From Povalibacter uvarum (lineage in GTDB: Bacteria > Pseudomonadota > Gammaproteobacteria > Steroidobacterales > Steroidobacteraceae): a stretch of DNA of 64,000 nucleotides. Positions 2,234 to 61,673 of the stretch are shown one piece after another. The stretch is taken from positions 1,054,001-1,118,000 of the forward strand of contig NZ_JACHHZ010000003.1 of assembly GCF_014202975.1 (NCBI RefSeq), given 5' to 3'. The number at the start of each line of letters is the position of its first letter. Positions within the stretch are counted from its first letter, which is position 1. Under the pieces are notes generated by a model that was given only the letters and a program-made list of their open reading frames with translations, made no database searches and was not told where the DNA came from. The position numbers and the translations under genes are program-made.

Positions 2234-2370
2234 AAGAAGAATGGCTGTGAGCTGTGAGCTGTGAGCGATGAACGATGAACGATGAGCGATGAGCCAGAAG
2301 AATGGTGGTGAGCTGCGAACCGGAGGTACGGAATCTCTGGCTCATAGCTCATCGCTCGCAGCTCATTGCC
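2234..2370. repeat. GAGCGAT-type heptamer repeat with inverted second arm
   Basis: The left arm (2249-2293) is six tandem 7-mers: GAGCTGT, GAGCTGT, GAGCGAT, GAACGAT, GAACGAT, GAGCGAT, plus a partial copy. The right arm (2338-2370) is the reverse complement of the same units. AGAAGAATGG occurs at both 2234 and 2297, so part of the arm is also directly duplicated. The element fills the gap between the glmS start and the stop codon of the next gene. Confidence 0.8.
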
Positions 2371-2371
2371 T

Positions 2372-2644
2372 TCATCCGTAGATCGCTCTGCGGATCTGCC
2401 GTTCGCTGTAGTCGTCCGCTCGAAACCGCCACTGCGCCAGTTCCGCCGTGATTCGCGCGAAGATCTCGCTGTTCGCACAACCGGCGGTCTGCAGTGCCCG
2501 ATGACGCCGCCGGATGAAGTCGTCGGGGGTTTCGTCCATGAAATGCAGGATTTCGTGAACGATGCGCACGGCTTCGGCGGGGCTCAGTCGGGTCGTCCGG
2601 GTCAGGTAGGCGACGATTTCGTCGAAGTCAGTCTGATCCGGCAT
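2372..2644 (-). CDS. conserved small protein of unknown function
   Basis: A 90-aa acidic, apparently helical protein with no signal peptide, membrane segment or recognisable catalytic motif. It has one Cys, a basic stretch (DDFIRRRHRAL) in the middle and ends ERQIRRAIYG. It lies between the heptamer repeat upstream of glmS and another small gene. Codon use looks like that of its neighbours (third positions mostly G/C) and the frame is clean, which supports it being real. I do not recognise the family. Confidence 0.55.
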   Translation of the reverse strand: MPDQTDFDEIVAYLTRTTRLSPAEAVRIVHEILHFMDETPDDFIRRRHRALQTAGCANSEIFARITAELAQWRFRADDYSERQIRRAIYG

Positions 2645-2717
2645 GGGCGCGCACTCTGCCTGAGGAGGGGTGGAACTCCCAGGAGTTTGCCCGAATCCGG
2701 GCAGGAGGCAGGGGAAA

Positions 2718-2735
2718 GCGGCGCTGAGGCGCCGC
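2718..2735 (-). terminator. hairpin terminator after the small membrane protein gene
   Basis: GCGGCGC and GCGCCGC form a perfect 7-bp stem around a 4-nt loop. Read on the minus strand the hairpin begins at the TAG stop of the membrane protein gene and is followed by CTTTCCCC, a short T stretch, so it looks like a modest intrinsic terminator. Confidence 0.5.
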
Positions 2736-3097
2736 TAATCGCCGTTATGGCTCAGGTACACGTAGATGTAGCAGGTGACGAACAGGACTGTCACGGCGCA
2801 AGCGAACATGACTCCGGCGCCCGCGGCCATGACGGAAAGCAGCCCGGATGCATGAGCCGTGCGGGAATCGAAGGCCATGATGAGGCCGAAAGCGAGAGCG
2901 CAGTTGCAGAGCCACTTCAGCAGGTAGCCCGGCAAATGCACCCGCATGGTGCGGTTGTGACGGTATGCGGCGGCTCGTGTGAGTCGATCGCCGGTCGCCG
3001 CGTTCTTGAACAGCCAGAACGGCCAGAGGTAGCGGAACAGCACCAGCGACAGCGGCATATTCTCATAGGAAGCGGTGGGAACTGCGCGCTGGGTCAT
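2735..3097 (-). CDS. small inner-membrane protein of unknown function
   Basis: A 120-aa protein with three hydrophobic segments: about residues 16-31 (LVLFRYLWPFWLF), 58-77 (LKWLCNCALAFGLIMAF) and 84-116 (a long Gly/Ala/Val-rich stretch ending FVTCYIYVYLS). A basic loop after the first segment (RLTRAAAYRHNRTMR) would be cytoplasmic by the positive-inside rule. No family was recognised. It is followed by a hairpin terminator and separated by about 115 bp from the phzF-like gene. Confidence 0.55.
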   Translation of the reverse strand: MTQRAVPTASYENMPLSLVLFRYLWPFWLFKNAATGDRLTRAAAYRHNRTMRVHLPGYLLKWLCNCALAFGLIMAFDSRTAHASGLLSVMAAGAGVMFACAVTVLFVTCYIYVYLSHNGD

Positions 3098-3212
3098 GAC
3101 GTCACCGGGATCATCTCATCGCCGCGGGGCGATATTCACGAGAGAGCGACACTCACGATAGATGGATAGGAGCGCGCAATGGTTCCGTAGTTGTCCGTAC
3201 TCCGCCCGAAAG

Positions 3213-4058
3213 TCAGAGCTCGATGGTGCCGCGGCCGATCTCGATGACGTCGCCGCTGACCAGAATGCGACCATCGGCCGTCACGTCGAGGATCAGGATC
3301 GATGGACGCCCGACGTATTCGCCCTGAGAGATTTCGTATCGATGCGGCAACTTGCGCTTGGTGGCGACGAGCCAGCCGCCGAGATTTGCAGTAGCCGATC
3401 CTGTGGCGGGGTCCTCCAGCATCGCACCGGCGCTCGGGAAAAAATAGCGTGAGAGACATCGTCCCGGCGCCGTTTCGGCAAAGACGTATGCGTTGCTCTG
3501 GCCTTCCTTGTTCGCGAGCCGCGAAACGAGTCGCGCATCAGGAAGGGCGCGGCGCACGGCAGCTTCGTTCGTCAGTGGGATGACCAGTTGCTCCTTGCCG
3601 GCTTCGACCCAAAGCGGACGATCCGCGACGTCCGCGGTCTCGAGCTGAAGCATTGCGGCGATATCCGCGCGCGACGCATCGACCTCGCGCCAAGTCGGCG
3701 CGTTCGCCTGAAGCGTCCAGCGATCCCCATCGGCTTTGACGGGAATGACGCCGGCGCGCATCTCGAGAGTGAGCTCATCGCCGCCCAGTCCAAGCGATCG
3801 ACAGACGAATGCCGTGCCGAGCGTCGGGTGTCCCGCGAAGGGCATCTCGTAGTCCGGCGTGAAGATGCGTACGCGCGCTTGGGCCGTTGTGGACGGCAGG
3901 ATGAACGTCGTTTCGGAAAGGTTGAACTGCCGGGCCAGCGCCTGCATCGCCTCGTCGCTCAGGACGGAGCCGTTCTCGAATACGCCGAGCGGATTGCCTG
4001 TCAGTCGGCCGCCGTTCTGGGTAAAGACATTGACGATGCGAAAGGGCAGAGAGGGCAT
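3213..4058 (-). CDS. PhzF family isomerase/epimerase-like protein
   Basis: A PhzF/YddE fold protein of 281 aa, a typical length. The family isomerises trans-2,3-dihydro-3-hydroxyanthranilate in phenazine producers, but most members are of unknown substrate. Visible signatures are FTQNGGRLTGNPLGVFENG near the start, NLSETTFILP with the conserved Glu, the FTPDYEMPFAGHPTLGTAF block, and EDPATGSATANLGGWL near the C-terminus. The ATG at 4058 is preferred because MPSLPFRIVNVFTQ aligns with family N-termini; 18 more codons are open upstream. It lies beside the kynurenine operon on the same strand, so its substrate may be related to aromatic amines, but that is inference. No other phenazine genes are present. 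Confidence 0.88.
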   Translation of the reverse strand: MPSLPFRIVNVFTQNGGRLTGNPLGVFENGSVLSDEAMQALARQFNLSETTFILPSTTAQARVRIFTPDYEMPFAGHPTLGTAFVCRSLGLGGDELTLEMRAGVIPVKADGDRWTLQANAPTWREVDASRADIAAMLQLETADVADRPLWVEAGKEQLVIPLTNEAAVRRALPDARLVSRLANKEGQSNAYVFAETAPGRCLSRYFFPSAGAMLEDPATGSATANLGGWLVATKRKLPHRYEISQGEYVGRPSILILDVTADGRILVSGDVIEIGRGTIEL

Positions 4059-4173
4059 GGCGCAGTGCCTGACTGAGAGAGGGTGAACGCCAGTCTCATG
4101 GACCGGGCGCACGCGCGTAAATGCACAGTGAGCGTTCTCGGAGAGCGCTACAGCAAAGCGACTGTGTCCATTC

Positions 4174-5535
4174 TCAGATCGATGACAGTCGGGCTGCGAT
4201 CAGCTGTTCGGCGCGTTCGAAATCCACCTGGTCCATGGTCGCTGCATTGTGCGTCAGCGTGTCGAGAATCTCGTGCTGGATGCGGCCACGTTCCTGCGCC
4301 GTCGAGTAGGGAATGTCATCGTGGAACATCACCATCGAGTAGCGCGGCACGAAGCGATCGGGGAAGCGGCGTTCGAGCTCGAGCGACAGAACCTTCTGCA
4401 GCTGGAATTTCGGATGCCGCACCGTGTCGCGCATTTCCTGGTAGTTCTCGAGCGCCATGTCCGCAATGGCGTTGGTGTTCGGCCGGCGCGAATGTTCGAA
4501 CGCCGCGAAGGCGTCCGCCCAATCCTTGCGATCGTGCAGCAACTCGTCGAGCTCGCGGCAGTCTTCGAAGGCGCAATTCATGCCTTGTCCGTGGAAAGGC
4601 GTGATGGCGTGAGCCGCATCACCGATCAGCATCAGACGGTCGTCGAGCGCCCAGCGCTGGCACCGGACAGTTCCCATGGTGCCGGTCGGGTTCTCCGAGA
4701 ACTCCGTCGCGAGCTTCGGCATGAGCTGCGCGGCATCCGGAAAATGCCGCTGGAAGAACTCGTCGACAGCCGCTGTCGATTGCAGCGATTCGAAGCTCTC
4801 GGCGCCCTTGCGGGCCAGGAACAGGGTGACGGTGAAACTGCCGTCAAGGTTCGGCAACGCGATCAGCATGAAGCCGCCTCGCGGCCAGATATGCAGCGCG
4901 TTCTTGTGGATCAGGTGATTGCCGTACGTGTCCGGCGGCAAGGTCAGTTCCTTGTAGGCGTGCGCGAGCAGGTCTTCAGTCGCGTCGGCGCGTAGTCCCT
5001 GGACTAGTGCGTGACGAATCGGCGAGCCCGCGCCGTCCGCGGCGATTACCCGCTGCATCGGCAACTCCCATGTCGTGCCCGCTGACTCGTCGCGCATGAG
5101 GATGTGATGGGTGCGGAAATCGGCGTCGACGGAACTCTGGCGGAAGTTGAGCTCGACGCCGGCTGCTTCGGCGGCGTCGAGCAGAATGCGGTTCAGGCCC
5201 GGTCGCGAGACGGAGTAGATGACTTCGCTGTCGCCTTGTCCGTACGGTACGAATGTCAGCGCTTCGTCGGGCAGATGCAGCAATCGGCCCGGCATCGGAA
5301 TGAGGAGGGGAAGCACCTGCTGCATGACGTCGGCTCGTTCCAGTGCCGCGATGCCGCGGGCCGCCAATGCGAGGTTGATCGAACGTCCCGCCGGAATGGC
5401 TTCGCGACGCTGATCGGGCAGGCGCTCGAATACGCGCACCTTGTGGCCCCGGTGGGCGAGGAGGATCGACATCAGCGTGCCGGCGAGACCCGCGCCGATG
5501 ATCGAAACGGATTCGCTTTTCTTGTTGACTGTCAT
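4174..5535 (-). CDS. kmo: kynurenine 3-monooxygenase
   Basis: An FAD- and NADPH-dependent aromatic hydroxylase that converts L-kynurenine to 3-hydroxykynurenine. The protein is 453 aa, within the bacterial range. It starts with a Rossmann FAD motif (SIIGAGLAGTLMSILLAHRG), carries the IPAGRSINLALAARG block of KMO, and the second FAD motif GDAAHAITPFHGQGMNCAF around residue 300. The same frame stays open upstream across kynU, but MTVNKKSESVS at 5535 is the natural start: its ATGA overlaps the kynU stop by 4 bp, a sign of translational coupling. Last gene of haaO-kynU-kmo. Confidence 0.95.
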   Translation of the reverse strand: MTVNKKSESVSIIGAGLAGTLMSILLAHRGHKVRVFERLPDQRREAIPAGRSINLALAARGIAALERADVMQQVLPLLIPMPGRLLHLPDEALTFVPYGQGDSEVIYSVSRPGLNRILLDAAEAAGVELNFRQSSVDADFRTHHILMRDESAGTTWELPMQRVIAADGAGSPIRHALVQGLRADATEDLLAHAYKELTLPPDTYGNHLIHKNALHIWPRGGFMLIALPNLDGSFTVTLFLARKGAESFESLQSTAAVDEFFQRHFPDAAQLMPKLATEFSENPTGTMGTVRCQRWALDDRLMLIGDAAHAITPFHGQGMNCAFEDCRELDELLHDRKDWADAFAAFEHSRRPNTNAIADMALENYQEMRDTVRHPKFQLQKVLSLELERRFPDRFVPRYSMVMFHDDIPYSTAQERGRIQHEILDTLTHNAATMDQVDFERAEQLIAARLSSI

Positions 5536-6821
5536 GAACGCCCGTCGGAATTCAGTGCGCGCGCCAGGGCTTCCACGAAAGCGCCGACCTCGCTGAAGGT
5601 GTTGTAGAGCGGGACAGGCGCGACGCGAATCACATCGGGTTCGCGCCAGTCGCAGGTGAAGTTGGCGGTCGTCAACGCGGTGTGTACGGCACGCGCAGCA
5701 GCCGGTGGGCGATGCAGGCGCAGTGAGAGCTGACATCCGCGCTGCGCCGGATCCGCGGGAGTGAGGATCGAGACGCGATCTCGCAGGCGTTCCTGCAGCA
5801 GCGTCGACAGGCAGCCAGTCAACGCGAGGGCTTTCTTGCGTAACGCATCCATGCCCGCTCGATCGAACAGCTCGAGCGAAGCCAGCAGCGGTGCCGCGGA
5901 GAAGATCGACGGATTGGAAAGCTGCCAGCCCTCGGCGCCCGGCAGAGGCCGGAATGCTTCGGGCATCTCGAAGCGCGACGATTTGTCGTGCCCCCACCAG
6001 CCTGCGAAACGCGGCAGATCGAACGCGCGTGCGTGCCGTTCGTGAACGAAGCAGCCGCCAATCGCGCCGGGTCCGCTGTTGAGGTACTTGTAGCTGCACC
6101 ACACAGCGAAATCGGCATTGGAGTCGTGCAAGGCGAGCGGCACATTGCCGACTGCATGTGCAAGGTCGAAGCCGACGACGATGCCCTGGGCGTGCGCACA
6201 GGAGACGATCTGCTTCATGTCGAACCACTGACCGCTCAGGTACTGAACGCCGGGGAACATGACCGTCGCGATCGTCGAACCTTCGCGTTCGAGGAACTCG
6301 CAAACGTCGTCGGTGCGAATGAGGACTTCGTCTGGGCGCGGGCCCAGTTGCACGAGACACGCGGCTGGATCGAAGCCGCGTTGCGCGATCTGCGAGGCGA
6401 CAGCATAGCGGTCCGAAGGGAACGCACTCCGCTCGATGACGATGCGCGAGCGCTCCTTCGTCGGGCGATAGAAGCTCGTCAGCATCAGATGCAGGTTGAC
6501 CGTCAGCGAATTCATCGCCACGACTTCAGAAGGCAGGGCGCCTGTCAGTCGCGCCAGTCCACCGGTCAGTTGTTCGTGATAGGAGAGCCACGGGCGCCGG
6601 GGCTCGAAATGGCCTTCGACACCGTGCTTTGCCCACGTGGCGAGTTCCTCGTTGAGAATCGTCGCCGTGCGCTTCGGCTGAAGTCCGAGGGAGTGCCCGC
6701 AGAAGTACACGCTCGGTGAACCATCGGCTCGCGGCGGGATGTGAAACTCGTTGCGGAGGTTCGCGAGGGGGTCTGTCGCGTCCATCCGCGTCAGTGCATC
6801 GCGGTCGGGAGTGCCGTTCAC
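5532..6821 (-). CDS. kynU: kynureninase
   Basis: A PLP enzyme that cleaves 3-hydroxykynurenine (or kynurenine) to 3-hydroxyanthranilate and alanine. It is 429 aa. Family signatures seen: YFCGHSLGLQPK near the N-terminus, FDLAHAVGN in the middle, and the PLP lysine motif CSYKYLNSGPG, followed by FAGWWGHDKSSRF. A GTG start at 6821 is chosen because it forms a GTGA overlap with the haaO stop; an ATG at 6785 (MDATDPLANL) is the alternative. Its stop overlaps the kmo start by 4 bp. A longer open frame upstream runs through haaO and is not coding. Confidence 0.94.
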   Translation of the reverse strand: MNGTPDRDALTRMDATDPLANLRNEFHIPPRADGSPSVYFCGHSLGLQPKRTATILNEELATWAKHGVEGHFEPRRPWLSYHEQLTGGLARLTGALPSEVVAMNSLTVNLHLMLTSFYRPTKERSRIVIERSAFPSDRYAVASQIAQRGFDPAACLVQLGPRPDEVLIRTDDVCEFLEREGSTIATVMFPGVQYLSGQWFDMKQIVSCAHAQGIVVGFDLAHAVGNVPLALHDSNADFAVWCSYKYLNSGPGAIGGCFVHERHARAFDLPRFAGWWGHDKSSRFEMPEAFRPLPGAEGWQLSNPSIFSAAPLLASLELFDRAGMDALRKKALALTGCLSTLLQERLRDRVSILTPADPAQRGCQLSLRLHRPPAAARAVHTALTTANFTCDWREPDVIRVAPVPLYNTFSEVGAFVEALARALNSDGRS

Positions 6822-7330
6822 TTGGCCGGTGCCACCGTGCCGCAGGCCTGGCACGTCCGGTTCTTCAGGGAGTGATGGAACCGCTCGAAGATCGGCGGCA
6901 ACTGGTGCTCGATGTCGTTGACGTGCACGTATTCGGCATAGAGCGGGTACTGGCAGTAGCCGCAATACCAGAGGAAGCCGTCCTGTTCTTCCGGGCGTCG
7001 TTTCCGCTCGACGACCAGTCCGACCGTATTGGCGAAACGCTGCGGCGAGTGGGGCACGCGCGCCGGCAGCAGCAGGATCTCGCCCTCATTGATGGGAATA
7101 TCGACCCGGGCGCCTTCCTGCATGGTTCGCAGGATCATGTTGCCTTCGAGCTGGTAGAAGAACTCCTCACCCGGATCGTCGTGATAGTCGTCGCGCGAGT
7201 TGGGTCCGCCGACGACCATGATGATGAATTCGGACTGCTCGAACACCTGCCGGTTGCAGACGGGCGGCTTCAGGAATTCGCGATGACGGTCGATCCACTC
7301 GCGGAAATTGAAGGCTTTGAGTGCGTTCAT
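6818..7330 (-). CDS. haaO: 3-hydroxyanthranilate 3,4-dioxygenase
   Basis: A cupin-fold Fe(II) dioxygenase that opens 3-hydroxyanthranilate to the unstable precursor of quinolinate. It is 170 aa. The metal ligands can be placed by analogy with the Ralstonia enzyme at His50, Glu56 (DYHDDPGEEFFYQ) and His94 (RVPHSPQRF). A second rubredoxin-like iron site is present as two CxxC pairs (WYCGYC and RTCQAC) near the C-terminus, as in the bacterial homodimeric type. It is the first gene of haaO-kynU-kmo. The product set suggests de novo NAD synthesis from tryptophan, though tryptophan dioxygenase and kynurenine formamidase are not in this window. Confidence 0.96.
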   Translation of the reverse strand: MNALKAFNFREWIDRHREFLKPPVCNRQVFEQSEFIIMVVGGPNSRDDYHDDPGEEFFYQLEGNMILRTMQEGARVDIPINEGEILLLPARVPHSPQRFANTVGLVVERKRRPEEQDGFLWYCGYCQYPLYAEYVHVNDIEHQLPPIFERFHHSLKNRTCQACGTVAPAK

Positions 7331-7452
7331 GCAACGTCTCCGGCTTTGCGCTTAGAGTATAGCCGTCTCATGAACCCGTCGGGCGAGTCGACGGCAGTCT
7401 GTAGGGGCGTCGGAGAATTCCAGCGGCGCAGCGCCACGGAGCGAAAGCGAAC

Positions 7453-8124: not shown

Positions 8125-8131
8125 AAGAGCG

Positions 8132-8974: not shown

Positions 8975-8983
8975 GGCGGGGAA

Positions 8984-9020
8984 GCCAGCTAGGCTGCTGG
9001 CTCGCTAACCGGCTGGCCAG
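8984..9020. repeat. degenerate CTGGC-type repeat upstream of apaH
   Basis: The 37 bp between the apaH start and the apaG stop carry GCCAGCT, GCTGCTGGCT and CGGCTGGCCAG in close order, the same building blocks as the CTGGCNN heptamer elements near mrdA and gatB, but more diverged. Part of it can pair with itself (AGCCAGC with GCTGGCT). Confidence 0.4.
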
Positions 9021-9039
9021 AACAAAAGCGGGATTAGTC

Positions 9040-9965: not shown

Positions 9966-10004
9966 AGGGGATCTCCAGGTGGCGGGTGCGGGCTGCTTGA
10001 TCGA

Positions 10005-10035: not shown

Positions 10036-10038
10036 GCG

Positions 10039-10837: not shown

Positions 10838-11815
10838 CTAGCGATTCGCAGCGAGCTCGATTGCCATCTCGAGTGCGGCGACGAGGCTTCCCGCGTCGGC
10901 CTTGCCCGAACCTGCGAGCGAAAGTGCGGTGCCGTGATCGACGGACGTGCGCACGATCGGCAGGCCGAGCGTGACGTTCACGGCGTTACCGAAGCCGGCG
11001 TACTTGAGAACGGGCAGTCCCTGGTCGTGATACATGGCGAGCACGGCATCGGCCTGGTCGAGCTGGTGCGGTGTGAACGCCGTATCCGCGGGCACAGGGC
11101 CGATCAAGTGCAAGCCATCGTTGCGCAGCGCCGAGAGTACCGGCGCGATGACTTCGATTTCTTCGCGACCCAGATGGCCCCCTTCACCGGCATGCGGGTT
11201 GAGCCCGCACACGAGAATGCGGGGCGTCGCGATCCCGAAGCGCTGCTGAAGATCGTGATGAAGAATCCGCAGCACCTGCTCGAGCAGCGAGGGTGTTATC
11301 GCAGCGCTCACGGATGCAAGCGGCAGGTGCGTAGTCGCAAGAGCGACGCGTAGTTTGTCCGCGGCAAGCATCATGACTGGGAGTCGAGCGCCTGTTCGCT
11401 CGGCCAGATATTCCGTATGCCCGGAGAAGGCAACGCCGGCATCGTTGATCACACTCTTCTGCACGGGTGCTGTCACCATCGCGTCGTACTCGCCCGACGT
11501 GCAACCGTCGCAGGCCGCATCGAGGAGATCGAGGACGTATCGCGAGTTGGCTGTGTCGAGCTGGCCGGCGCGGACAGGCTGCTTTACCGACCTGTGCAGC
11601 ACGCGCAGCGTGCCGGGCTCGTGAGCCGAGCGGTGCGAATCGACGGGGATGAAGTTGAGATGCTTGCCGAGCTGCTGTGCGCGCTGGCGAAGAAGATCTA
11701 TGTCAGCTGCGACGATGAGATCGCAAACCCACGCGCTCGCCGCGATCTCGATACAAAGATCGGGTCCGATGCCCGCAGGCTCCCCGGAGGTCAGGATGAT
11801 GCGCGGCGAAGGCAT
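10838..11815 (-). CDS. pdxA: 4-hydroxythreonine-4-phosphate dehydrogenase
   Basis: An NAD- and metal-dependent dehydrogenase of pyridoxal 5'-phosphate synthesis (DXP-dependent route). It is 325 aa. Signatures are the N-terminal [38 protein letters not shown] and the terminal [12 protein letters not shown] with [14 protein letters not shown]. The ATG at 11815 matches family N-termini; a GTG at 11845, overlapping the surA stop, is open and could also be used. Third gene of the lptD operon. Confidence 0.96.
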
Positions 11816-11841
11816 TGAGTGGGCGGAGGTCCACCCTTCCG

Positions 11842-13149
11842 TCACATTCTGTATTCGACGAAGGCTTCGTCGCGCAGCCGGCGCAACCAGAGTTCAGTCT
11901 CTTCTTCCGCCTTCGACTCGCGCAGCTGCGCATACACCTGCTCGCGCATCTTGTCGTCGGTTGCGTCGTGCTGGCGGCGGCCGAGGAGCTGGATGATGTG
12001 CCAGCCGTACTGGGTCTTGAACGGCTTGCTGATTTCGTTCTCGTTGAGCGTGTTGAGCTCCTTCTCGAACTGCGGCACGAACGTACCGGGACCGGCCCAG
12101 CCCAGATCGCCGCCATCCGGAGCGGAACCGGGGTCCTGTGAAGTCACCGCGGCGATTGCGCCGAAATCCTCGCCGTTGAGGACGCGATTGCGGATGTCGT
12201 TGAGCTTCTGTTCCAGGGTCTGGTCGTCCTCGAGGTCATTGGGCGTCAGCAGGATGTGGCGGGCATGAACCTGTGCGACGACTGACTGCTGAGTACCGCC
12301 ACGCACTTCGTTCAACCGGAACAGATGAAAGCCGCTGGGCGTGCGGATCGGTTCGGAGATCTGACCCGCCTGCATCTTGACGACCTGTTCGGAAACGATC
12401 GACGGCAGCTGCGAGCCCTTGCGCCAGCCGAGCGACCCGCCTTCGATGTTCGTGGAGCTGTCGGAGTAGGTGAGGGCGAGCTGCGCGAAGTCTTCGCCGG
12501 CCTTCGCCTTCTCGTAGGCTTCCTGCGCCCGGCGCTCACGGCTTTCGATCTGCTCCGGCGATGCCGTCACGGGTACCGAAACCAGAATGTGCGAAATGTT
12601 GTACTCGCTGTTCTGGTTCGGTGAGTTCTTGTGCCGCGCCATGGCCTGTTCCATCTCGCGCGGCGAAATGTTGATGCGACCGATCACGTCGCGCTGCCGC
12701 AGCATCTGCAGCGTCATCTGCCGGCGGATCTCGTCGCGATACGAGCGGTAATCCACACCCTGCTGCGCAAGAGCCCGGGGCAGGTCGGCGAATTCGATGT
12801 TGTTCGAGCGGGCGATGTTCGCAAGCGCGCCATTCAGCATTTCATCGGAGATCTGCAGGCCCAGCTTGTCGGCACGCTGGATCTGGATTTCCTCGACCAC
12901 GAGCCTTTCGAGGATCTGGCGGCGCAGCACGTTGCGCGGCGGCAGCTCGGTGTTCTGCTGACGCAGACGGGCGGTGATTTCCTCGGTCTGCTCGTCGAGC
13001 TGGCTGTTCAGCACCATGCCGTCGTTCACGATCGCGACGATCCGGTCGAGCGGCTCGCCGCTGGTCGACAGGTCGCGGGTCTGGGCCGAAACGATTCCCG
13101 CGGACAGCAGCAGGGAAAGGGTCAGAACGGCAGGGCGGATGATGTTCAT
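11842..13149 (-). CDS. surA: periplasmic peptidyl-prolyl isomerase/chaperone SurA
   Basis: SurA escorts unfolded outer-membrane proteins, including LptD, through the periplasm. The 435-aa protein starts with a signal peptide ([18 protein letters not shown], cleavage near VSAQ), then the N-terminal chaperone domain, and two parvulin domains: the first around [10 protein letters not shown] to [13 protein letters not shown], the second around [10 protein letters not shown] to [13 protein letters not shown]. The upstream open frame of 44 codons is ignored because it would bury the signal peptide. It follows lptD by about 135 bp. Confidence 0.97.
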
Positions 13150-15633: not shown

Positions 15634-16701
15634 GTGTCACTTTCCACGACAGAAACATCAGCAGGCCATGCCGACGAACGACTCGAGCAGCTGCGGCAAT
15701 GGGTGTCGGTGTTGTTCGGATCGACCGACTTCACGCTCGCCCCGGCGTCGGCGGATGCGAGCTTTCGTCGGTATTTCAGGGTCACGCGCAACGGCCAGAC
15801 ATGGATCGCGATGGATGCGCCGCCCGAGAAGGAGAACATCGAGCCTTACGTACGCATCGCGAACATGCTCGTCGCGGTCGGTGTGAACGCTCCCCACATC
15901 CTCGAAACGAATCTCGAGCAGGGATTCCTGCTGAATTCGGACCTGGGGAGCCGGACCTATCTGAACGAGATCGATGGGGGCGGCGATGCGGACCGCCTTT
16001 ATCACGACGCCATGGATGCGCTGGTGCAGATCCAGGCAAACGGACAATCCCACGCCGCGCAGCTGCCGCCGTACGACGAAGCGCTGCTCCAGCGGGAAAT
16101 GACATTGTTCCCGGAGTGGTTCTGCGGCCGTCACCTTGGCCTGACGTTGTCGGATGACGACATCGCCGGGTTGCGCGATACGTTCGACGCACTCGCGCGA
16201 GAGGCGCTCGCTCAACCCCGGGTGTTCGTGCATCGCGACTACCACTCGCGCAACCTGATGGTGGGTGGCGGCCGGTTCGGGCCCAATCCGGGCATCCTGG
16301 ATTTTCAGGACGCGGTCCATGGGGCAGTTACCTACGACCTCGTTTCGCTGCTGCGCGACTGCTATGTCGCGTGGCCAATCGAGCGCGTTCACGGATGGGT
16401 GGCCAGGTTCCGCGAGGTGGCGAGGGCCGCTGGCGTCGACACGGGGCCGGATCAGAAAACATTCCTGCGCTGGTTCGACCTCATGGGCGTGCAACGTCAT
16501 CTGAAAGCGATCGGGATCTTCGCGCGCCTCTGGCATCGCGATGGCAAACCCGGCTACCTCAAGGACATTCCGCGCACCCTGAACTACGTGCGGGTCGTGA
16601 GCGCCTGCTATCCCGAATTGCAGTACCTGAGAACACTCATCGACACACGCGTGATGCCGGCGCTCAACCAGGCGGCGGCGGCAGCGAAGCAGGGCAGTTG
16701 A
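15634..16701 (+). CDS. amgK: N-acetylmuramate/N-acetylglucosamine kinase
   Basis: An aminoglycoside phosphotransferase-fold kinase. With MurU it forms the shortcut recycling route in which MurNAc is phosphorylated at the anomeric carbon and turned into UDP-MurNAc, by-passing de novo synthesis and its fosfomycin-sensitive step. The 355-aa protein has DASFRRYFRV near the start, the catalytic loop FVHRDYHSRNLMV, and the metal-binding GILDFQDAVHGAVTYDLVSLLRD. The start is a GTG at 15634 with no strong Shine-Dalgarno, so it is a little uncertain. It overlaps murU by one base (TGATG) and is divergent from lptD, as in pseudomonads. Confidence 0.92.
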   Translation: MSLSTTETSAGHADERLEQLRQWVSVLFGSTDFTLAPASADASFRRYFRVTRNGQTWIAMDAPPEKENIEPYVRIANMLVAVGVNAPHILETNLEQGFLLNSDLGSRTYLNEIDGGGDADRLYHDAMDALVQIQANGQSHAAQLPPYDEALLQREMTLFPEWFCGRHLGLTLSDDDIAGLRDTFDALAREALAQPRVFVHRDYHSRNLMVGGGRFGPNPGILDFQDAVHGAVTYDLVSLLRDCYVAWPIERVHGWVARFREVARAAGVDTGPDQKTFLRWFDLMGVQRHLKAIGIFARLWHRDGKPGYLKDIPRTLNYVRVVSACYPELQYLRTLIDTRVMPALNQAAAAAKQGS

Positions 16702-36151: not shown

Positions 36152-36253
36152 GACTGGCTACTGGCGACTGGCCACTGGCGGCTGGCCAGACGCGAGGTGC
36201 CTGGCGCTCCTGCTGTTCTGGCCAGTCGCCAGCCGCCAATGGCCAGTCGCCAT
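36152..36253. repeat. CTGGC-type heptamer repeat with two inverted arms, mrdA-mreD
   Basis: Left arm 36152-36189 is five exact 7-mers of the form NNCTGGC (GA, TA, GA, CA, GG). Right arm 36218-36253 is the reverse complement (GCCAGTC, GCCAGCC, GCCAATG, GCCAGTC). The element begins one base from the mrdA start codon and ends two bases from the mreD stop, so it is the entire intergenic region and can form a long hairpin in the mRNA. Confidence 0.9.
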
Positions 36254-37756: not shown

Positions 37757-37786
37757 CTGGCGACTGGCTACTGGCCGCTGGCCAGA
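37757..37786. repeat. CTGGC-type heptamer repeat, single arm, mreC-mreB
   Basis: Four 7-mers CTGGCGA, CTGGCTA, CTGGCCG, CTGGCCA followed by GA, located 10 bp before the mreC start. No complementary second arm is present between here and mreB. Confidence 0.8.
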
Positions 37787-37856
37787 AAAAGAGGAAGCAA
37801 GGCGGCGGCGGATGAGTGCCTTGCTGGCTGAATCACGCGAAGGTTGCTGTCCGCGA

Positions 37857-40900: not shown

Positions 40901-41020
40901 TTCGCGGGTGGGCTGCTGGCCGCTGGACTGCTGGCCAGACCCGCGCGTGATGCAGCTCGAGTTGAATTGATCGGTGTTGTTTTCGGCTCTGGCCAGCAGC
41001 CAGCAGCCAGTAGCCAGGTC
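40901..41020. repeat. CTGGC-type heptamer repeat with two arms, gatA-gatB
   Basis: Left arm (40911-40939) is built of CTGCTGG, CCGCTGG, CTGCTGG and CCAG; right arm (40988-41017) is CTGGCCAGCA, then GCCAGCA, GCCAGTA and GCCAGG, its reverse complement. Shorter flanking pairing exists between GCGGGT (40904) and ACCCGCG (40939). The element fills the 129 bp between gatA and gatB. Confidence 0.8.
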
Positions 41021-42491: not shown

Positions 42492-42663
42492 CTGTGAATC
42501 CGGCTTCAGCCTGTGGGTCCGGCTTCAGCCGGACGTCATCGCCGCAGGCGAGGCCCGTCATTCCCGCGAAAGCGGGAATCCATCCGGAAAAGCATGGATT
42601 CCCGCTTTCGCGGGAATGACCGAAGGCGCTTCGCGCTGACGTCCGGCTGAAGTCGGACCCACA
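42492..42663. repeat. composite nested inverted repeat downstream of gatB
   Basis: Outer arms TGTGGGTCCGGCTTCAGCC... (42512-42538) and its reverse complement (42637-42663) match at 26 of 27 positions. Inside, a second pair of perfect 27-bp arms (42557-42583 and 42594-42620) carries the ATTCCCGCGAAAGCGGGAAT palindrome twice. A partial extra copy of the outer arm (GTGAATCCGGCTTCAGCC) precedes at 42494-42511. No ORF is inside. Confidence 0.9.
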
Positions 42664-42741
42664 GCGGCAGTTCGACCTCACTGACCTTCGTGTAAAACTT
42701 CGACTCTTTAAACTCGCCCGGATCGCCTCCATCTTTGGGCG

Positions 42742-45735: not shown

Positions 45736-45752
45736 GCCAGTAGCCAGTAGCC
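45736..45752. repeat. short CTGGC-type heptamer repeat, metF-metH
   Basis: GCCAGTA, GCCAGTA and GCC: about 2.4 copies of the 7-mer in the right-arm orientation. It lies between the metF stop (45722) and the metH ATG (45758) and leaves no room for a normal Shine-Dalgarno. Confidence 0.65.
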
Positions 45753-49488: not shown

Positions 49489-49581
49489 TTTCACACGGAG
49501 ATCACGGAGTGCACGGAGATCAGATGGAGGAGAACCTATCAGAGTTTCTTTGCTCCGTGATCTCCGTGAACTCCGTGTGAA
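49489..49581. repeat. CACGGAGAT nonamer inverted repeat
   Basis: Left arm (49489-49520) is TTCACACGGAG plus 9-mers CACGGAGTG and CACGGAGAT; right arm (49552-49581) is the reverse complement ending CTCCGTGTGAA. The arms match closely over about 30 bp with a 31-bp spacer, and lie between metH and the convergent thioesterase gene. No ORF inside. Confidence 0.85.
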
Positions 49582-50201: not shown

Positions 50202-50915
50202 ATGACCGGTTCTGCGTCGAAAGTGTATGCGAACGCGCGCGAGGCCCTCGCCGGGGTCGTCCGCGACGATCTCACGATCATGTCCGGCGGCTTCGGGCTC
50301 TGCGGGATTCCTGAGAATCTGATCCTTGCGCTGCGCGACTGCGGCGCGCGCGGTCTGACCGTCATTTCCAACAACGCGGGCGTCGACGAGTTCGGCCTGG
50401 GGCTGCTGCTCAAGACGCGGCAGATCCGCAAGATGATTTCCTCGTACGTCGGCGAGAACAAGGAATTCGAGCGCCAGTATCTGTCGGGCGAATTGCAGCT
50501 CGAGTTCAACCCGCAAGGGACTCTGGCAGAACGCATTCGCGCGGGAGGCGCGGGGATCTTCGGCTTCTACACGCGCACTGGTGCCGGCACGCTCGTCGCG
50601 GAAGGCAAGGAACAGCGAGTCGTGAACGGTGAGACGTTCGTGCTTGAAACGGGCCTGACCTCGGATCTGTCGCTCGTCAAGGCGTGGAAGGGCGACACCG
50701 AGGGCAACCTGGTCTATCGCAAGACCGCGAGGAATTTCAATCCGATGATGGCGACAGCCGGGCGCGTCACGATCGCCGAAGTCGAAGAGCTGGTGGAAGC
50801 CGGCGAGCTCGATCCCGACCAGATTCACACACCGGGCATCTTCGTGCAGCGCATTTTCAAGGGCACGGACTATGTGAAGCCGATCGAGCAGAGAACGGTC
50901 CGCAAAAAGAAGTAG
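50202..50915 (+). CDS. scoA: 3-oxoacid CoA-transferase subunit A
   Basis: The alpha subunit of succinyl-CoA:3-ketoacid CoA transferase, which activates acetoacetate with CoA from succinyl-CoA. The 237-aa protein has LTIMSGGFGLCGIPENLI, ISNNAGVDEFGLGLLLKTRQIRKMISSYVGEN, FNPQGTLAERIRAGGAGI and GNLVYRKTARNFNPMMATAG. It is followed by scoB after a 63-bp gap that includes a GGATGGC repeat. Confidence 0.95.
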   Translation: MTGSASKVYANAREALAGVVRDDLTIMSGGFGLCGIPENLILALRDCGARGLTVISNNAGVDEFGLGLLLKTRQIRKMISSYVGENKEFERQYLSGELQLEFNPQGTLAERIRAGGAGIFGFYTRTGAGTLVAEGKEQRVVNGETFVLETGLTSDLSLVKAWKGDTEGNLVYRKTARNFNPMMATAGRVTIAEVEELVEAGELDPDQIHTPGIFVQRIFKGTDYVKPIEQRTVRKKK

Positions 50916-50934
50916 ATAGCGGATGGCGGATGGT
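50914..50934. repeat. GGATGGC-type heptamer repeat, scoA-scoB
   Basis: AGATAGC, GGATGGC, GGATGGT: three consecutive 7-mers followed by CAGAAA, the same downstream extension as the element at 58.4 kb. It overlaps the last bases of the scoA stop codon. Confidence 0.75.
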
Positions 50935-50978
50935 CAGAAACGGAAACCGACAAAGCTCACTGCAAAGAGACAACTCCC

Positions 50979-57030: not shown

Positions 57031-58425
57031 ATGGCTCTTACCGATTGCCGCGGCGTTTCCGTTTCGACGCACAGCCGCGATGCGCTGCATCACTACGAGC
57101 AGGCTGTTGAATTGTCAGCCGGCTATTACGCGGATCCCATGACGACGATCCGCGTGGCGATCGATACCGACCCGGACTTCGCGATGGGCCATTGCCTCCA
57201 GGCCGCCCTCATCGTGACGTCGACCGATCCGACGCTCGTGCCGATGCTGCGGTCGAGCATCGAGGCGGTCGAGGCTGTGGGCCGTCGGGCCAACGAGCGT
57301 GAGCGCGCCCATGCGGCGGCGGCTCGCAAGTGGCTGCATGGCGACTTCGCCGGTTCGATCCGCGCTTATGGCGACATCCTCCTGGACTATCCGCGTGATC
57401 TGCTGGCACTTCAGGTCGCTCACGTCGGAGACTTCCTGCTGGGACATTCATCGATGCTGCGGGATCGCGTTGCGCATGTCCTGCCGCACTGGGACTCGAC
57501 GGTACCGGGCTATGGTTATGTGCTCGGCATGCACGCCTTCGGACTCGAAGAGTGCGGTGCGTACTCGCAGGCCGAGGACACCGGCCGGCGCGCACTCGAC
57601 CTCAATCCTCGCGATCCCTGGGCAGTGCACGCGGTCGCGCACGTCATGGAAATGACCGGACGCGTGCGAGACGGCATCGATTGGCTGACTCGTCGCGAAC
57701 GGGACTGGGCGCCCGAGAACGGCTTTGCGTTCCACAACTGGTGGCACCTCGCGCTCTATCACCTCGACACGGGCGATGTGCCGGCAGTCCTGCAGCTGTA
57801 CGACCGCAAGGTGCGTCCGGTGGCGTCGCAAGTGCCGCTCGAAATGATCGACGCGTCTGCGTTGCTGTGGCGCCTGCATTTGCGCGGAGTCGATGTCGGA
57901 TCGCGCTGGCAGGCACTCGCGGCGTCCTGGGCACCGCTGATCGATCATGGCTACTACGCCTTCAACGACGTTCACGCTGTGATGTCGTTCATCGGCGCTC
58001 AGCGTCTCGATCTCGTCGCCCGCACGATCGCAACGCTGGAGCGCAAAGCGCTCGGCAACGACACGAACGCGATGATGTCGCGCGACGTCGGGTTGCCGAT
58101 GGCGCAGGCGCTGCTGGCCTTCGGCGCCGGGTACTACAACGATGTAGTCGAGCTGTTGCTGCCGGTGCGCACGATCGCGAACCGGTTCGGCGGCAGCAAC
58201 GCACAGCGGGACATCGTGCATCAGACACTCGTCGAAGCCGCGCTGCGTGCCGGCAATGCGAGCCTTTCGCGGGCGCTGGCATCGGAGCGCACTCATCTCA
58301 AGCCGACCAGTCCTTTCAACTGGCAGCTGACGGCGCGGGCGCTGGATCTGGCCGGTGATCAGGCCGGTGCGTCGTACGCGAGCGAGAAGGCCGAGGTGAG
58401 GCGCAAAGTCCAGAAGGTGGCGTGA
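57031..58425 (+). CDS. TTC38-like tetratricopeptide protein
   Basis: A 464-aa cytosolic protein that resembles the TTC38 family (human TTC38 is about the same length), of unknown biochemical role. The characteristic segments are AVHAVAHVMEMTGRVRDGIDWL and GFAFHNWWHLALYHLDTGDVPAVLQLYD. TPR-like helices run along the whole length. The ATG at 57031 is chosen because GGAGG lies about 10 bp upstream; codons further upstream are in frame but not family-like. Divergent from the SARP-type regulator. Confidence 0.75.
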   Translation: MALTDCRGVSVSTHSRDALHHYEQAVELSAGYYADPMTTIRVAIDTDPDFAMGHCLQAALIVTSTDPTLVPMLRSSIEAVEAVGRRANERERAHAAAARKWLHGDFAGSIRAYGDILLDYPRDLLALQVAHVGDFLLGHSSMLRDRVAHVLPHWDSTVPGYGYVLGMHAFGLEECGAYSQAEDTGRRALDLNPRDPWAVHAVAHVMEMTGRVRDGIDWLTRRERDWAPENGFAFHNWWHLALYHLDTGDVPAVLQLYDRKVRPVASQVPLEMIDASALLWRLHLRGVDVGSRWQALAASWAPLIDHGYYAFNDVHAVMSFIGAQRLDLVARTIATLERKALGNDTNAMMSRDVGLPMAQALLAFGAGYYNDVVELLLPVRTIANRFGGSNAQRDIVHQTLVEAALRAGNASLSRALASERTHLKPTSPFNWQLTARALDLAGDQAGASYASEKAEVRRKVQKVA

Positions 58426-58434
58426 TAAGGAAGG

Positions 58435-58608
58435 GGATGGCGGATAGCGATGGTGAATGGTCAGAATCTGCACTCACGGTCATCCCCGCACAGGCGGGGA
58501 TCCATCTTGTCGGAAGACCTTGGAGTCCCGCCTGCACGGGAGTGACGCGTCAGAATTCGTGCTGTCTTTCTCGAACCATCCGCCATCCGCTATCCGCTGT
58601 CCCCCTTC
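58435..58608. repeat. GGATGGC heptamer element with an internal ATCCCCGC palindrome
   Basis: Outer arms: GGATGGC, GGATAGC, GATGGTG, AATGGTC (58435-58462) and, on the far side, the reverse complement at 58573-58608 (GAACCATCC, GCCATCC, GCTATCC, GCTGTCC). Between them sits a second inverted repeat: TCATCCCCGC-ACAG-GCGGGGAT (58479-58500) and GTCCCGCCTGCACGGGAGTGA (58526-58545). The element fills most of the 186 bp between the TTC38-like gene and zapE. Confidence 0.85.
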
Positions 58609-58611
58609 GTC

Positions 58612-59697
58612 TTACGGCCGATGCGGCCGCGACAGATACTCCTGCGACTGCATCTCAATGAGCCGGCTCGACGTCCGCTCGAACTCGAACGCGAGCTTCG
58701 AGCCGCGATAGATCTGTGTCACCGGCGCGACGGTCGAAACGATCAGCTTCACTCCACGATCGTAGAACTCATCGACCAGGGTGACGAAGCGCCGGGCCTG
58801 GTTCTCCGACTCGGTCGTCAGCACCGGAATATCGCTCAGCATCACGGTGTGGAAGCAGCGCGCGATTTCGATGTAGTCGGCCTGGCCACGCGGTCCGTCG
58901 CAGAGTTCCTTGAAGTCGAACCACACGACATCCTCTGCGAGCCGCTTCGGATGCAGGCGCCGGTGATTCAGCGTCAGCGTCGCATTCGGCGTGCCGGCTT
59001 CGCCTGCAACCTGCTCGAAGAGTTGTGTCATCGAACCTGGGGTCCCGGCGTCGCCCGCAGCAAAAGCCGTGGGTGCGCTTTCGAGCGCGCGCAGGCGGAA
59101 GTCGACGCCCTTGTCGATCTGCACTACCTGGGTGTGCTCCTTCAGCAACTTGATCGCCGGTATGAAGCGCGCTCGTTGCAGGCCATCCTTGTAGAGATCG
59201 TCGGGCGGCACGTTGGAGGTCGCGACGAGCGTCACGCCCCGATCGAAGAGACCGCGGAAAAGATTCGCCAGCAGCATGGCATCGCCGATGTCGGCAACGA
59301 AGAGCTCGTCGAAGCACAATACCCGCGTCTTCTTAGCGATCTTCTCGGCGACGAGCTCGAGCGGATCGGCCTGATCCTTGTGCTTCTTCAGTTCGTCATG
59401 CACGGACTGCATGAACCGGTGGAAGTGACTGCGCTGCTTGTCCTTGAAGGGCAGGCTATGGAAGAACAGGTCCATCATCCACGTCTTGCCGCGGCCTACG
59501 CCGCCCCAGATGTACAGACCCTTTTCGAGCTCGCGCTGCTTGCCGTTGAACAATCCTTTCAGCAGGCCGGCGGAGCGCGGCTTGATGAGCCTCAGGCGCA
59601 ACTCGTCGAGCAGCGCAACGATGCGCTCCTGGGCAGCGTCCCGTTGATAGCCGAGGCGTGCGCATTCGCGCTGGTAGTGGGCGCTGACGTTGTCCAT
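58612..59697 (-). CDS. zapE: cell division ATPase ZapE (AFG1 family)
   Basis: A 361-aa AFG1-like P-loop ATPase that associates with the Z-ring and is also linked to respiratory stress. Walker A is GLYIWGGVGRGKTWMMD (about 60-76), Walker B RVLCFDELFVADIGDAM, and sensor VTLVATSNVPPDDLY. The C-terminus (RRFVTLVDEFYDRGVKLIVS) is typical. The ATG at 59697 overlaps the acetoacetyl-CoA synthetase stop (TGATG), so the two are co-translated. Pairing with that gene is unusual. Confidence 0.94.
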   Translation of the reverse strand: MDNVSAHYQRECARLGYQRDAAQERIVALLDELRLRLIKPRSAGLLKGLFNGKQRELEKGLYIWGGVGRGKTWMMDLFFHSLPFKDKQRSHFHRFMQSVHDELKKHKDQADPLELVAEKIAKKTRVLCFDELFVADIGDAMLLANLFRGLFDRGVTLVATSNVPPDDLYKDGLQRARFIPAIKLLKEHTQVVQIDKGVDFRLRALESAPTAFAAGDAGTPGSMTQLFEQVAGEAGTPNATLTLNHRRLHPKRLAEDVVWFDFKELCDGPRGQADYIEIARCFHTVMLSDIPVLTTESENQARRFVTLVDEFYDRGVKLIVSTVAPVTQIYRGSKLAFEFERTSSRLIEMQSQEYLSRPHRP

Positions 59698-61640
59698 CAA
59701 CGCTGCAGCTCGGGCAGATCGCGGAAGAACTCGAGCACCTGCGGGTTCGCAAGCGCATCGGTGTTGCGAACAGGGCGGCCGTGGACCGCCTCACGCACCG
59801 CCAGCTCAGTCAGCTTGCCGTTGAGCGTGCGCGGCAGGTCCGGCGCCTGAATGATCTTTGCCGGCACGTGCCGTGGCGTCGTGTTGCGGCCGATGGTGTC
59901 GCGAATCTTTCGTTGCAGTTCGTCGGTAAGCGTCAACCCGTCGAGTAGTCTCACGAAGAGCACGACGCGGACGTCGTTCTGCCAGCTCTGTGCGATCGCC
60001 ACTGATTCAGCGACTTCGGACACCTTCTCGACCTGGCGATAGATCTCCGCGGTGCCGATCCTCACGCCGCCGGGATTGAGTACGGCGTCAGAGCGGCCAT
60101 GAACGATCAGGCCGCCGCGCGACGTGACTGTGGCGAAGTCGCCGTGCCACCAGACGTTCGGATAGCGGGCAAAATAAGTCGCGTGAAAGCGTGAGCCATC
60201 GGTGTCGGACCAGAAGCCGATGGGCACTGAAGGGAAGGGCGCGGAGCAGACAAGTTCGCCCTGCGTGTCGACGACCGGCTTGCCGTTCTCGTCGAACACC
60301 TCGACCTTCATGCCAAGACCAAGGCATTGCATCTCGGTCTCGTAGACCGGCAACAGCGGGCAACCGAGCGCAAATGCACCGAGGATGTCCGTGCCGCCTG
60401 AGATGGACGCCAGCTGCACGTCCTGCTTCACGTCGCGATACACGTAGCGCACGCTCTCCGGGCTCAACGGTGCGCCTGTCGAAATGATCGTGCGCAGCGC
60501 GCTTAGGTCAAACTCGGTGCCAGGCCTTACGCCGGCCTGCTGACAGGCGGTGAGGAAACGCGGACTCGTGCCGAAGAATGCGAGTTTCTCCTCGGCGGCC
60601 ATGCGCCAGAGGATGCGGGGATCGGGCTGCACTGGTGAGCCGTCGAAGAGCACGACCGTCGCACCGGCGACGAGCGCACCGGCGAGGGCGTTCCACATCA
60701 CCCAACCGCAGGTGGTGTAGTAAAAGTAGCGGTCGCCTGTCCGCAGATCCGAATGCAGCACATGCTCTTTGATGTGCTGCAGGAGAGCGCCGCCGCCGCT
60801 GTGGGTAATGCACTTCGGCACACCCGTCGTTCCCGAGGAATAGAGAATGTAGACGGGATGAGCAAACGGCAATTGCGCGAACGAGAGCTTCGCGTCGGCG
60901 GAGCCGAAATCAGGGAACAGCACGGCGTCCGGAATGTCCGCGATCGCCGGCTTTTCGCTGAGGTACGGCACGATCACGACACGCTCGATGCTCGCAATCG
61001 TCTGCTTGACCGACTTCACGGTCGCGAGGCAATCGAGAGTCTTGCCGGCGTACGGATACGCGTCGGCGGCGATGAGTACCTTGGGAGAGATCTGGCCGAA
61101 CCGATCGCATACTCCGCTCACACCGAAGTCGGGTGAACACGAGGACCAGATCGCGCCCAGGCTGGCCGTTGCCAGCATCGCGATCATCGCTTCCGGCAGA
61201 TTGGGCAGGTAGCCCGCGACGCGATCGCCTTCCTTCACGCCGGCTTGCCGCAATCCGTCGGCGATCCGGGCGACTTCAGTGCGCAGCTGCCGCCACGACA
61301 ATTCGCGGCGAACGCCGCGCTCGTTGCGGAAGATGATCGCGGGGGAGTCGTCGTCGAGCTTCAGGAGGTTCGCGGCGAAATTGAGCTTCGCGCCGACAAA
61401 CCACTGCGCGCCGGGCATCTTGTTGCCGTCGACGAGTACGCGGTCGGCCTTGCGCTCGGCCCGTACCTCGGCAAAGTCCCATAGGGCGCTCCAGAAGTTT
61501 TCCGGATACTCGACCGACCAGCGATGCAGAGCAGCGTAGTCAGCGAGGGGCGCCTGATGGCGTTCACGCGCAAAGCGCATGAATCGCGTCATGTGCGCAT
61601 CGGCGATGCGCTCGGGGGGAGGCGACCAGATGGGATTCAT
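59697..61640 (-). CDS. acetoacetyl-CoA synthetase
   Basis: An ANL-superfamily ligase, 647 aa, that makes acetoacetyl-CoA from acetoacetate, ATP and CoA. The N-terminal NPIWSPPPERIADAHMTRFMRF and WSVEYPENFWSALWDF are typical of AacS. The P-loop is YILYSSGTTGVPKCI, later come YYTTCGWVMWNALAGAL and the C-terminal catalytic Lys in PRTLNGKLTELAVR. The start has no Shine-Dalgarno; a GGATGGC heptamer repeat abuts it. Related short-chain acyl-CoA synthetases are the only real alternative. Confidence 0.93.
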   Translation of the reverse strand: MNPIWSPPPERIADAHMTRFMRFARERHQAPLADYAALHRWSVEYPENFWSALWDFAEVRAERKADRVLVDGNKMPGAQWFVGAKLNFAANLLKLDDDSPAIIFRNERGVRRELSWRQLRTEVARIADGLRQAGVKEGDRVAGYLPNLPEAMIAMLATASLGAIWSSCSPDFGVSGVCDRFGQISPKVLIAADAYPYAGKTLDCLATVKSVKQTIASIERVVIVPYLSEKPAIADIPDAVLFPDFGSADAKLSFAQLPFAHPVYILYSSGTTGVPKCITHSGGGALLQHIKEHVLHSDLRTGDRYFYYTTCGWVMWNALAGALVAGATVVLFDGSPVQPDPRILWRMAAEEKLAFFGTSPRFLTACQQAGVRPGTEFDLSALRTIISTGAPLSPESVRYVYRDVKQDVQLASISGGTDILGAFALGCPLLPVYETEMQCLGLGMKVEVFDENGKPVVDTQGELVCSAPFPSVPIGFWSDTDGSRFHATYFARYPNVWWHGDFATVTSRGGLIVHGRSDAVLNPGGVRIGTAEIYRQVEKVSEVAESVAIAQSWQNDVRVVLFVRLLDGLTLTDELQRKIRDTIGRNTTPRHVPAKIIQAPDLPRTLNGKLTELAVREAVHGRPVRNTDALANPQVLEFFRDLPELQR

Positions 61641-61645
61641 GAAGG

Positions 61646-61673
61646 GGATGGCGGATAGCGGATGGCGGATGGT
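61646..61673. repeat. GGATGGC-type heptamer repeat, single arm, before acetoacetyl-CoA synthetase
   Basis: GGATGGC, GGATAGC, GGATGGC, GGATGGT (four exact 7-mers) followed by AAGAAC. It starts 6 bp upstream of the acetoacetyl-CoA synthetase start codon. No complementary arm is seen before the ETF-QO stop. Confidence 0.8.

Follow-up and report, generated by a model that had tools for sequence, protein, structure and literature searches.

Why heptamers dominate among the long simple repeats of bacteria is an open question, and the usual answer is polymerase slippage. The question is raised by a 64,000-nucleotide stretch of Povalibacter uvarum DNA (C3:1054001-1118000 of a 6.32-Mb, 11-contig genome), the whole of which is called the window here. 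Several gaps between its genes carry tandem heptamers made of different words, and the larger ones are laid out as two inverted arms. The initial annotation suggested for them one generating process acting on different seed words. We found the sites to be part of a population of heptamer units that extends over the genome and sits in gaps as convergent arms, and a single generating process is probable. Our tentative explanation, to which we give a probability of roughly 0.4, is that heptamer units at different loci are copied from one another by ectopic template switching or gene conversion, while slippage acts as a trimmer. The copying step is the part of it that we infer.

Heptamer arrays in the genome

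Arrays were found by a lag scan in which periods 4-15 were compared. The window held six period-7 arrays against none or one at each of periods 4-6, 8-13 and 15, and three of its four period-14 rows were the same period-7 arrays. A further 800 kb of this genome, taken from outside the window, had 38 period-7 arrays compared to at most 16 at periods 4-6 and 8-13; the 31 period-14 rows fell to 7 once multiples were removed. The main survey covered 1.264 Mb, or 20% of the 6.32 Mb, and sorted arrays into intergenic and coding ones with a home-made gene caller that called 90% of the DNA coding. Period 7 accounted for 55 intergenic arrays and period 9 for 14, followed by period 14 with 10 and period 8 with 4; no other period up to 15 had more than 2. 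Coding DNA had 8 arrays at period 7 and 8 at period 9. Five dinucleotide shuffles of the gaps, used as the null, gave a mean of 0.0 period-7 arrays and at most 0.4 at other periods. The tandem heptamers are thus not confined to a few sites, and their number exceeds that at periods 5, 6, 8 and 9 (55 against at most 14).

The exact 7-bp period that was first described stood as the dominant one, but it does not have the layout to itself. A family with the words CACGGAGNN/CTCCGTGNN makes up 12 of the 14 intergenic period-9 arrays and has a two-arm layout like that of the heptamers, with another unit length. One such two-arm element lies at window 49490-49581.

Exact-word arrays of at least two units were counted in 1.424 Mb with coding DNA included, which inflates loose words such as GAGCNNY. 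The counts were 69 for GAGCNNY, 44 for GCGGTTR, 33 for GCGGATR, 23 for CTGGCNN and 14 for GAGGCNY, and there were three others. At least GCGGTTR and GAGGCNY therefore come on top of the three words recognized at first, and GCGGTTR shows no array in the window in spite of its size. The third of the original words, GGATGGC, marked a real family, but it is GCGGATR in another register. All the sites originally listed exist, including the degenerate one at 9.0 kb (gap 8975-9039), which is under the array threshold and was recognized through its counterpart in the sister genome G002.

The proposal of several words with one architecture, an intergenic position and a hairpin in the larger elements was borne out. 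The G/purine-rich strand enters the loop from both sides in 45 of 46 pairs here and in 12 of 12 in G002 (57 of 58; arrays at most 200 nucleotides apart). Among 75 gaps (under about 700 nucleotides) with a period-7 array, 42 hold an overlapping inverted repeat and the rest have single or decayed arms; the set of 42 includes at least one member of the 9-mer family (L027 3881). In the main families, CAGA follows the arm in 20 of the 42 elements and TCTG closes the loop in 24, compared with about 4.5 in shuffles, and similar adaptors adjoin the arms within a family. The only sequence shared among 34 loops was two short 11-mer matches, and no whole-element copies with conserved sequence were seen. 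Two elements are hybrids. At about 885 kb of C3 the left arm is GCGGTTA and the right arm GCGGATR, and at L038 13715 the words in the arms are reversed relative to that case.

Words in related genomes

Three words were counted genome-wide as x3 matches, which overlap. Of 118 genomes, 7 contained GCGGTTR x3, and every one of these belongs to this genus. Its matches numbered 217 here, 160 in G012, 64 in G011 and 21, 12, 10 and 1 in four others; the reversed GCGGTTR pattern is nearly its own rotation and so gives no valid control for these counts. There were no matches in the sister G002 and none in G001, which is the sister of G011 in a one-protein tree (support 98/98). GGCNACA x3 was present in 2 of 14 genomes, with 111 matches in G002, 6 in G004 and none here. 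CTGGCNN x3 had 54 matches here, 141 in G002 and one or two in three others. Two of the three words thus abound in one of the sisters and do not occur in the other, CTGGCNN being common to both. The amplification is specific to the species, and such differences between sisters (217 against 0, and 0 against 111) suggest that words spread between loci. Independent local seed words do not fit these counts.

Next, the same gaps were compared in close relatives. Among 151 conserved gene pairs (284 kb here and 537 kb in G002), arrays were present in both genomes at 11, here only at 13, in G002 only at 7 and in neither at 120 (Fisher p 2.6e-6). Arrays are therefore often shared with G002, mostly with other words; CTGGCNN is kept at 40.9 kb, at 45.7 kb and in one further gap. 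The gap between mreD and the PBP2-type gene, whose protein has its nearest match (87% identical) in a record labelled uncultured Steroidobacter, has CTGGCNN here, GCCTGTC outside and an older GGCCAGC beside the loop in G002, and CTGGGCK in G007. Degenerate remnants were seen there by eye in G004 and G013, and no array was found in eight other genus members (G005 left out) or in 17 loci of other genera. Downstream of flhA, each of five species has a word of its own in the gap: GAGCNNY here, GGCGACA in G002, ACGGGCN in G004, GGGGCRT in G007 and GGGGATA in G012. It measures only 11-23 nucleotides in G001, G006, G008, G009 and G010.

At two sites both the flanks and the loop could be aligned. The outer units in G002 are GCCCAGC at 37.8 kb and GCCTGTC at 36.2 kb, where the inner unit is still GGCCAGC. 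With these alignments, it is secure that the word changed in place at both. The presence of hairpins in many of the same gaps of relatives, usually with another word, points to genome-wide copying rather than simple local stuttering.

Recent gains were seen in G011, for which 7 of 11 fetched sites were compared with G001, G003, G010 and G008 (flanks 81-98% identical). Four of the seven have no element in any of the four relatives, with G001 flanks that are 92-97% identical. One further site has an ordinary hairpin in two relatives and nothing in the other two, and at another G003 bears an apparent decayed heptamer hairpin. The element at L217 1323-1458 lies directly upstream of a mutL-type mismatch repair gene. 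Where its arm meets the loop, G001 has GGTTAGTGAAG and the other three relatives have variants, a sequence that resembles the inner adaptor. The new sites replace some spacer, and no target duplication was seen by eye at the seven sites.

Such gains would also be produced by a mobile palindrome of the repetitive extragenic palindrome (REP)/REPIN type or the miniature inverted-repeat transposable element type, moved whole by a transposase. The recurring CAGA..TCTG motif and the similar adaptors within a family agree with this. However, the loops are not shared, spacer is replaced without a target duplication, and there is no common enzyme. The Y1 transposase (PF01797; RAYT) was over the cut-off in 5 of 13 genomes (G000, G002, G006, G009 and G012) and not in the other 8, among them the carriers G003, G004, G007 and G011, with some of the genomes being incomplete drafts. 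No known heptamer word was near six fetched Y1 loci; L206, one of these, did have a single period-7 array with a different word, and L204, another of them, contains a run of N. We therefore consider movement of whole palindromes possible, though unlikely.

Unit composition and unit order

The core of the unit is uniform. None of the six core letters varies in 66 GCGGTTR units between exact neighbours, and the seventh position has G in 41 and A in 25. Without the neighbour condition, 2 of 786 core letters differ in 131 units, not counting units with fewer than four of the six core letters. With the same rule, letters other than the commonest made up 5 of 594 in the core and 45 of 99 at the seventh position of 12 G011 loci. 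Since several G011 elements are recent gains, the mixed seventh letter is probably original. The core divergence per base, calculated from units with no more than one core change, was 0.4% for GCGGTTR, 1.0% for GCGGATR and 2-5% for CTGGCNN, GAGCNNY, GAGGCNY and CAGGCNA, with 0.9% for GAGCNNY in G002.

These units could have arisen by local replication slippage from chance seeds, with a polymerase that favours period 7. Excerpts of PMC4679880 and PMC4692102 attribute the idea of slippage and period 7 to Mrazek et al. (2007), and the dominance of period 7 among the 55 intergenic arrays agrees with it. In six of seven sets, however, neighbouring units did not resemble each other more than they did after shuffling. 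Identical neighbours, observed against shuffled, numbered 32 of 67 against 33.6 for GCGGTTR, 6 of 24 against 12.2 for GCGGATR, 10 of 87 against 8.7 for GAGCNNY, 1 of 10 against 1.7 for GAGGCNY and, for CTGGCNN, 2 of 22 against 4.0 here and 14 of 40 against 12.0 in G002. In G011, neighbours were less alike than chance (28 of 99 against 37.4) among the matches listed, that is, in 40 arms among 100 of 105 matches with one short end arm left out. Slippage thus leaves no signature in most sets and does not seem to be the main generator. Words that one sister has in large numbers and the other lacks also speak against it. The lone exception is GGCNACA (= CAGGCNA) in G002, where 34 of 50 neighbours are identical against 20.2 and the arrays look slipped. 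L084 holds long, near-pure arrays at 11654-11918 and 16518-16666 (TTGCTCA with about 8 units and CGGTTGA with more than 10), unlike the short mixed arms elsewhere, and these too are what slippage would leave. As the main source of the arrays, slippage is improbable in our view.

The unit order of paired arms was not mirrored in 11 elements here (219 against 221 +- 5). At 17 two-arm G011 loci, one of which has arms about 480 nucleotides apart, the mean run common to both arms was 1.71 against 1.65 among the matches listed. Arm-to-arm copying (quasipalindrome correction) was therefore rejected, since the unit orders of the arms are independent; the 36.2-kb element is a counter-example.

Gene context and pairing of the arms

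The 1.264-Mb survey covered 462 co-directional gaps, and 46 of these had arrays; the figures were 5 of 97 for convergent gaps and 4 of 154 for divergent ones. Co-directional gaps were preferred to divergent ones (p 0.003; against convergent gaps, p 0.17). The 34 co-directional elements lie at a median of 6 nucleotides past the stop codon and 12 nucleotides ahead of the next start. They occur in ordinary operons, such as mreD/PBP2, tuf to rpoB (tuf, nusG, L11 and rpoB named by Pfam, the remaining genes by order and size) and the flagellar operon with flhA. The gene in L019 of the latter was identified as FlhA by Pfam, which overturned a reading as elongation factor G. In the tuf-secE gap of L167 (G012 C98), two-arm GGGGATA hairpins flank a tRNA gene (Trp from anticodon reading) on both sides.

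The gap preference and the tight placement would suit RNA hairpins between genes, whether mRNA stabilizers, processing sites or terminators, that are kept by selection for pairing. So would the nusG/rplK gap and one G011 site, where some relatives have an ordinary hairpin and others a heptamer hairpin. When heptamer elements from the nusG/rplK gap of two genomes were folded as RNA, z was -8.3 here and -12.8 in G011, and the ordinary hairpin of six relatives was weaker (z -1.6 to -3.4). The arms themselves, however, carry no signature of RNA pairing. On the transcribed strand of 29 co-directional elements, 851 pairs included 30 G.U, 31 A.C and 34 other mismatches, so that there was no excess of G.U (share of G.U+A.C, 95% interval 0.36-0.62). 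This suggests that RNA pairing is not the selected trait and, together with the unit order, that the arms are alike from carrying one word. TTTT, the T run that marks an intrinsic terminator, follows 1 of 39 hairpins, and the inner motif favours neither strand (of 34 elements, 5 have it in sense alone, 7 in antisense alone and 13 in both). Elements are also missing in close relatives. Taken together, selection for RNA hairpins is a doubtful source of the elements, and we rate it no higher than slippage.

Other signals in the elements were also considered. A split ribosome-binding site, in which the hairpin would move a purine-rich GGAG ahead of the left arm close to the start, was dropped because the outer GAAG/GGAG enrichment was mild (26 of 42 against 16.6; CTTC/CTCC, 19 against 13.8). 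A CsrA-type GGA in the loop was too weak, with GGAG near the loop start in 9 of 34 sense against 4 of 34 antisense.

Proposed mechanism

Another possible source is an enzyme that writes repeats from a template. It would extend both 3' ends at a break with a fixed core plus one loose letter, so that two G-rich arms come to face each other. Telomerase seeding interstitial telomere repeats is an analogue. The entry of the G-rich strand into the loop in 57 of 58 pairs, the hybrid arms, the mixed seventh letter in G011 with its recent gains and the independent unit order of the two arms (11 elements here; 17 G011 loci, among the matches listed) would all be expected from such writing. On the other hand, RVT_1 was not found in this genome, the richest in GCGGTTR matches, although a divergent one could be missed, and a reverse transcriptase was rejected as the writer for this reason. 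The changed word at 36.2 and 37.8 kb is in the outer units and not beside the loop, and the 36.2-kb arms share their unit order. Writing at the ends of breaks is the least probable of the sources considered. In a slightly different form, which we still find very improbable, a word-specific writing activity would lay heptamers of six fixed letters and one loose letter from both sides of a gap. A mutating template would give each species its own words in the same places, as a bacterial analogue of telomere-repeat addition between genes.

Template switching or gene conversion between units at different loci could work as follows. While DNA is replicated or repaired, a strand whose end is a heptamer, or a short native sequence that looks like one, would anneal to units at other loci and copy one or a few of them, by which arms would grow, be rewritten and change word. 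Units with a core matching the current majority would presumably take part most. Such matching would keep the core uniform and leave the other letters free, and a new word could sweep the genome like an allele in a population. Slippage would afterwards mainly trim the arms. The hairpin need not be selected as RNA; it would be there because two arms of one word face each other.

Several observations weigh against this explanation. No copying event was seen, and the native look-alikes at new G011 sites were noticed by eye alone. At most shared sites the loops are not alignable and, therefore, a word rewritten in place looks the same there as an element inserted anew into a preferred gap. Among the 11 shared pairs is one whose gap in G002 measures 1.4 kb and which may be a different site. 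Little unit order is shared between G011 loci. Among the matches listed, runs of three were not shared (59 against 67.1 expected), and runs of four were marginal (10 against 5.1; 31 of 1000 shuffles). Any copying would therefore need to proceed by one or two units at a time. The slipped appearance of GGCNACA in G002 and the two long arrays in L084 count here as well.

Sites in the window

The heptamer arms of the window are listed in Table 1. No Rfam match in the window was above the gathering score.

Table 1. Positions of heptamer arms in the window
Position	Strand	Feature	Remark
2244-2294	.	Left arm, GAGCNNY/GCTGTGA words, about 7 units	Two-arm element in co-directional gap
2336-2369	.	Right arm pairing with 2244-2294	Loop starts CCAGAA and ends TCTGG
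8984-9022	.	Degenerate CTGGCNN-like arm	Two-arm GCCTGTA element in same gap of G002
36153-36190	.	CTGGCNN element arm between mreD and PBP2-type transpeptidase gene	
36217-36252	.	Partner arm of 36153-36190	Three variable dinucleotides in same order in both arms (25 nucleotides, 96%)
37757-37787	.	Single CTGGCNN arm	G002 orthologue with outer units turned to GCCCAGC
40911-40943	.	Left arm, CTGGCNN two-arm element	
40984-41017	.	Right arm of 40.9-kb element	Orthologous G002 element has same word
45736-45752	.	Short lone CTGGCNN arm	G002 has same word
50915-50933	.	Short lone GCGGATR arm at stop codon	Not in G002
58433-58449	.	Left GCGGATR arm	Element in convergent gap
58576-58602	.	Right GCGGATR arm	Inverted pair of REP-like palindromes within loop
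61646-61672	.	GCGGATR arm	
61723-61734	.	Weak partner arm of 61646-61672	

Other palindromes were also noted. The REP-like pair at 58480-58547 sits in the loop of the heptamer element 58433-58602, where one kind of repeat seems to have entered another. Window 42511-42664 has nested palindromes, with CTGTGGGTCCGGCTTCAGCCGGAC arms enclosing a perfect 27-bp GTCATTCCCGCGAAAGCGGGAATCCAT pair, which is REP-like by its look. In place of the heptamer arm of window 50916-50978, G002 (C17:271305-271442) has a GGCCGGCTTC/GTCAGGCTTCAGCCTGAC palindrome, and similar palindromes occupy other G002 gaps.

Relation to known repeats

The initial annotation knew of no description of such repeats in gammaproteobacteria, which does not hold for the kind as a whole. 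Rehm et al. (2015, PMC4692102) described the GGGNATC heptamers of Xanthomonas, with 70 convergent pairs in one species and 75 in another. In the excerpts of that paper, they resemble the present elements in their 7-nucleotide unit with conserved and free positions, their mostly intergenic location between aligned open reading frames with few in divergent gaps, and their convergent pairs, and they are not generally tied to mobile elements. The same unit length, pairs and gap preference place the elements in a kind already known in gammaproteobacteria. In contrast, these excerpts describe one G-rich word, read as a G-quadruplex, whereas here there are several words per genome and the main ones (GCGGTTR, GCGGATR, GAGCNNY, GAGGCNY and CTGGCNN) contain no GGG. 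Since words with and without GGG stand at one gap in different species, a quadruplex cannot be the shared trait and was ruled out. GGGAATC x3 was found in none of 274 class genomes, this one included, in a sample that may not include Xanthomonas.

TAACTGA of the marine Beggiatoaceae (MacGregor 2015, PMC4679880) is a second earlier case. As far as the excerpts go, it is one word in direct repeats with a single inverted case and no convergent two-arm layout. Nostoc GGGGA(C/T)T and three Calothrix tandem heptanucleotides, as told in excerpts of PMC4692102, share the heptamer unit and the presence of more than one heptanucleotide in one cyanobacterium. Nostoc has few paired repeats, and word replacement at orthologous gaps is not described for either in those excerpts. 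Like REP/REPIN sequences with RAYT, as portrayed in excerpts of PMC3116915, PMC2817692 and PMC3733652, the elements are short intergenic palindromes in high copy; unlike them, several carriers had no Y1 transposase found, and the loops are not copied. New, as far as the open-licence literature shows, are several words with one layout in one genome, the replacement of one word by another in the same gap of sister species, elements with hybrid arms, and the negative results for slippage and for RNA pairing.

This genus offers occupied and empty sites in close genomes, several words, replacement at fixed places and an invariant core with a free letter. Slippage, transposition, RNA selection and copying in trans can therefore be set against each other in it. 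If words do spread between loci, bacterial intergenic DNA would hold self-homogenizing repeats like the satellites of eukaryotes, on a scale of seven bases.

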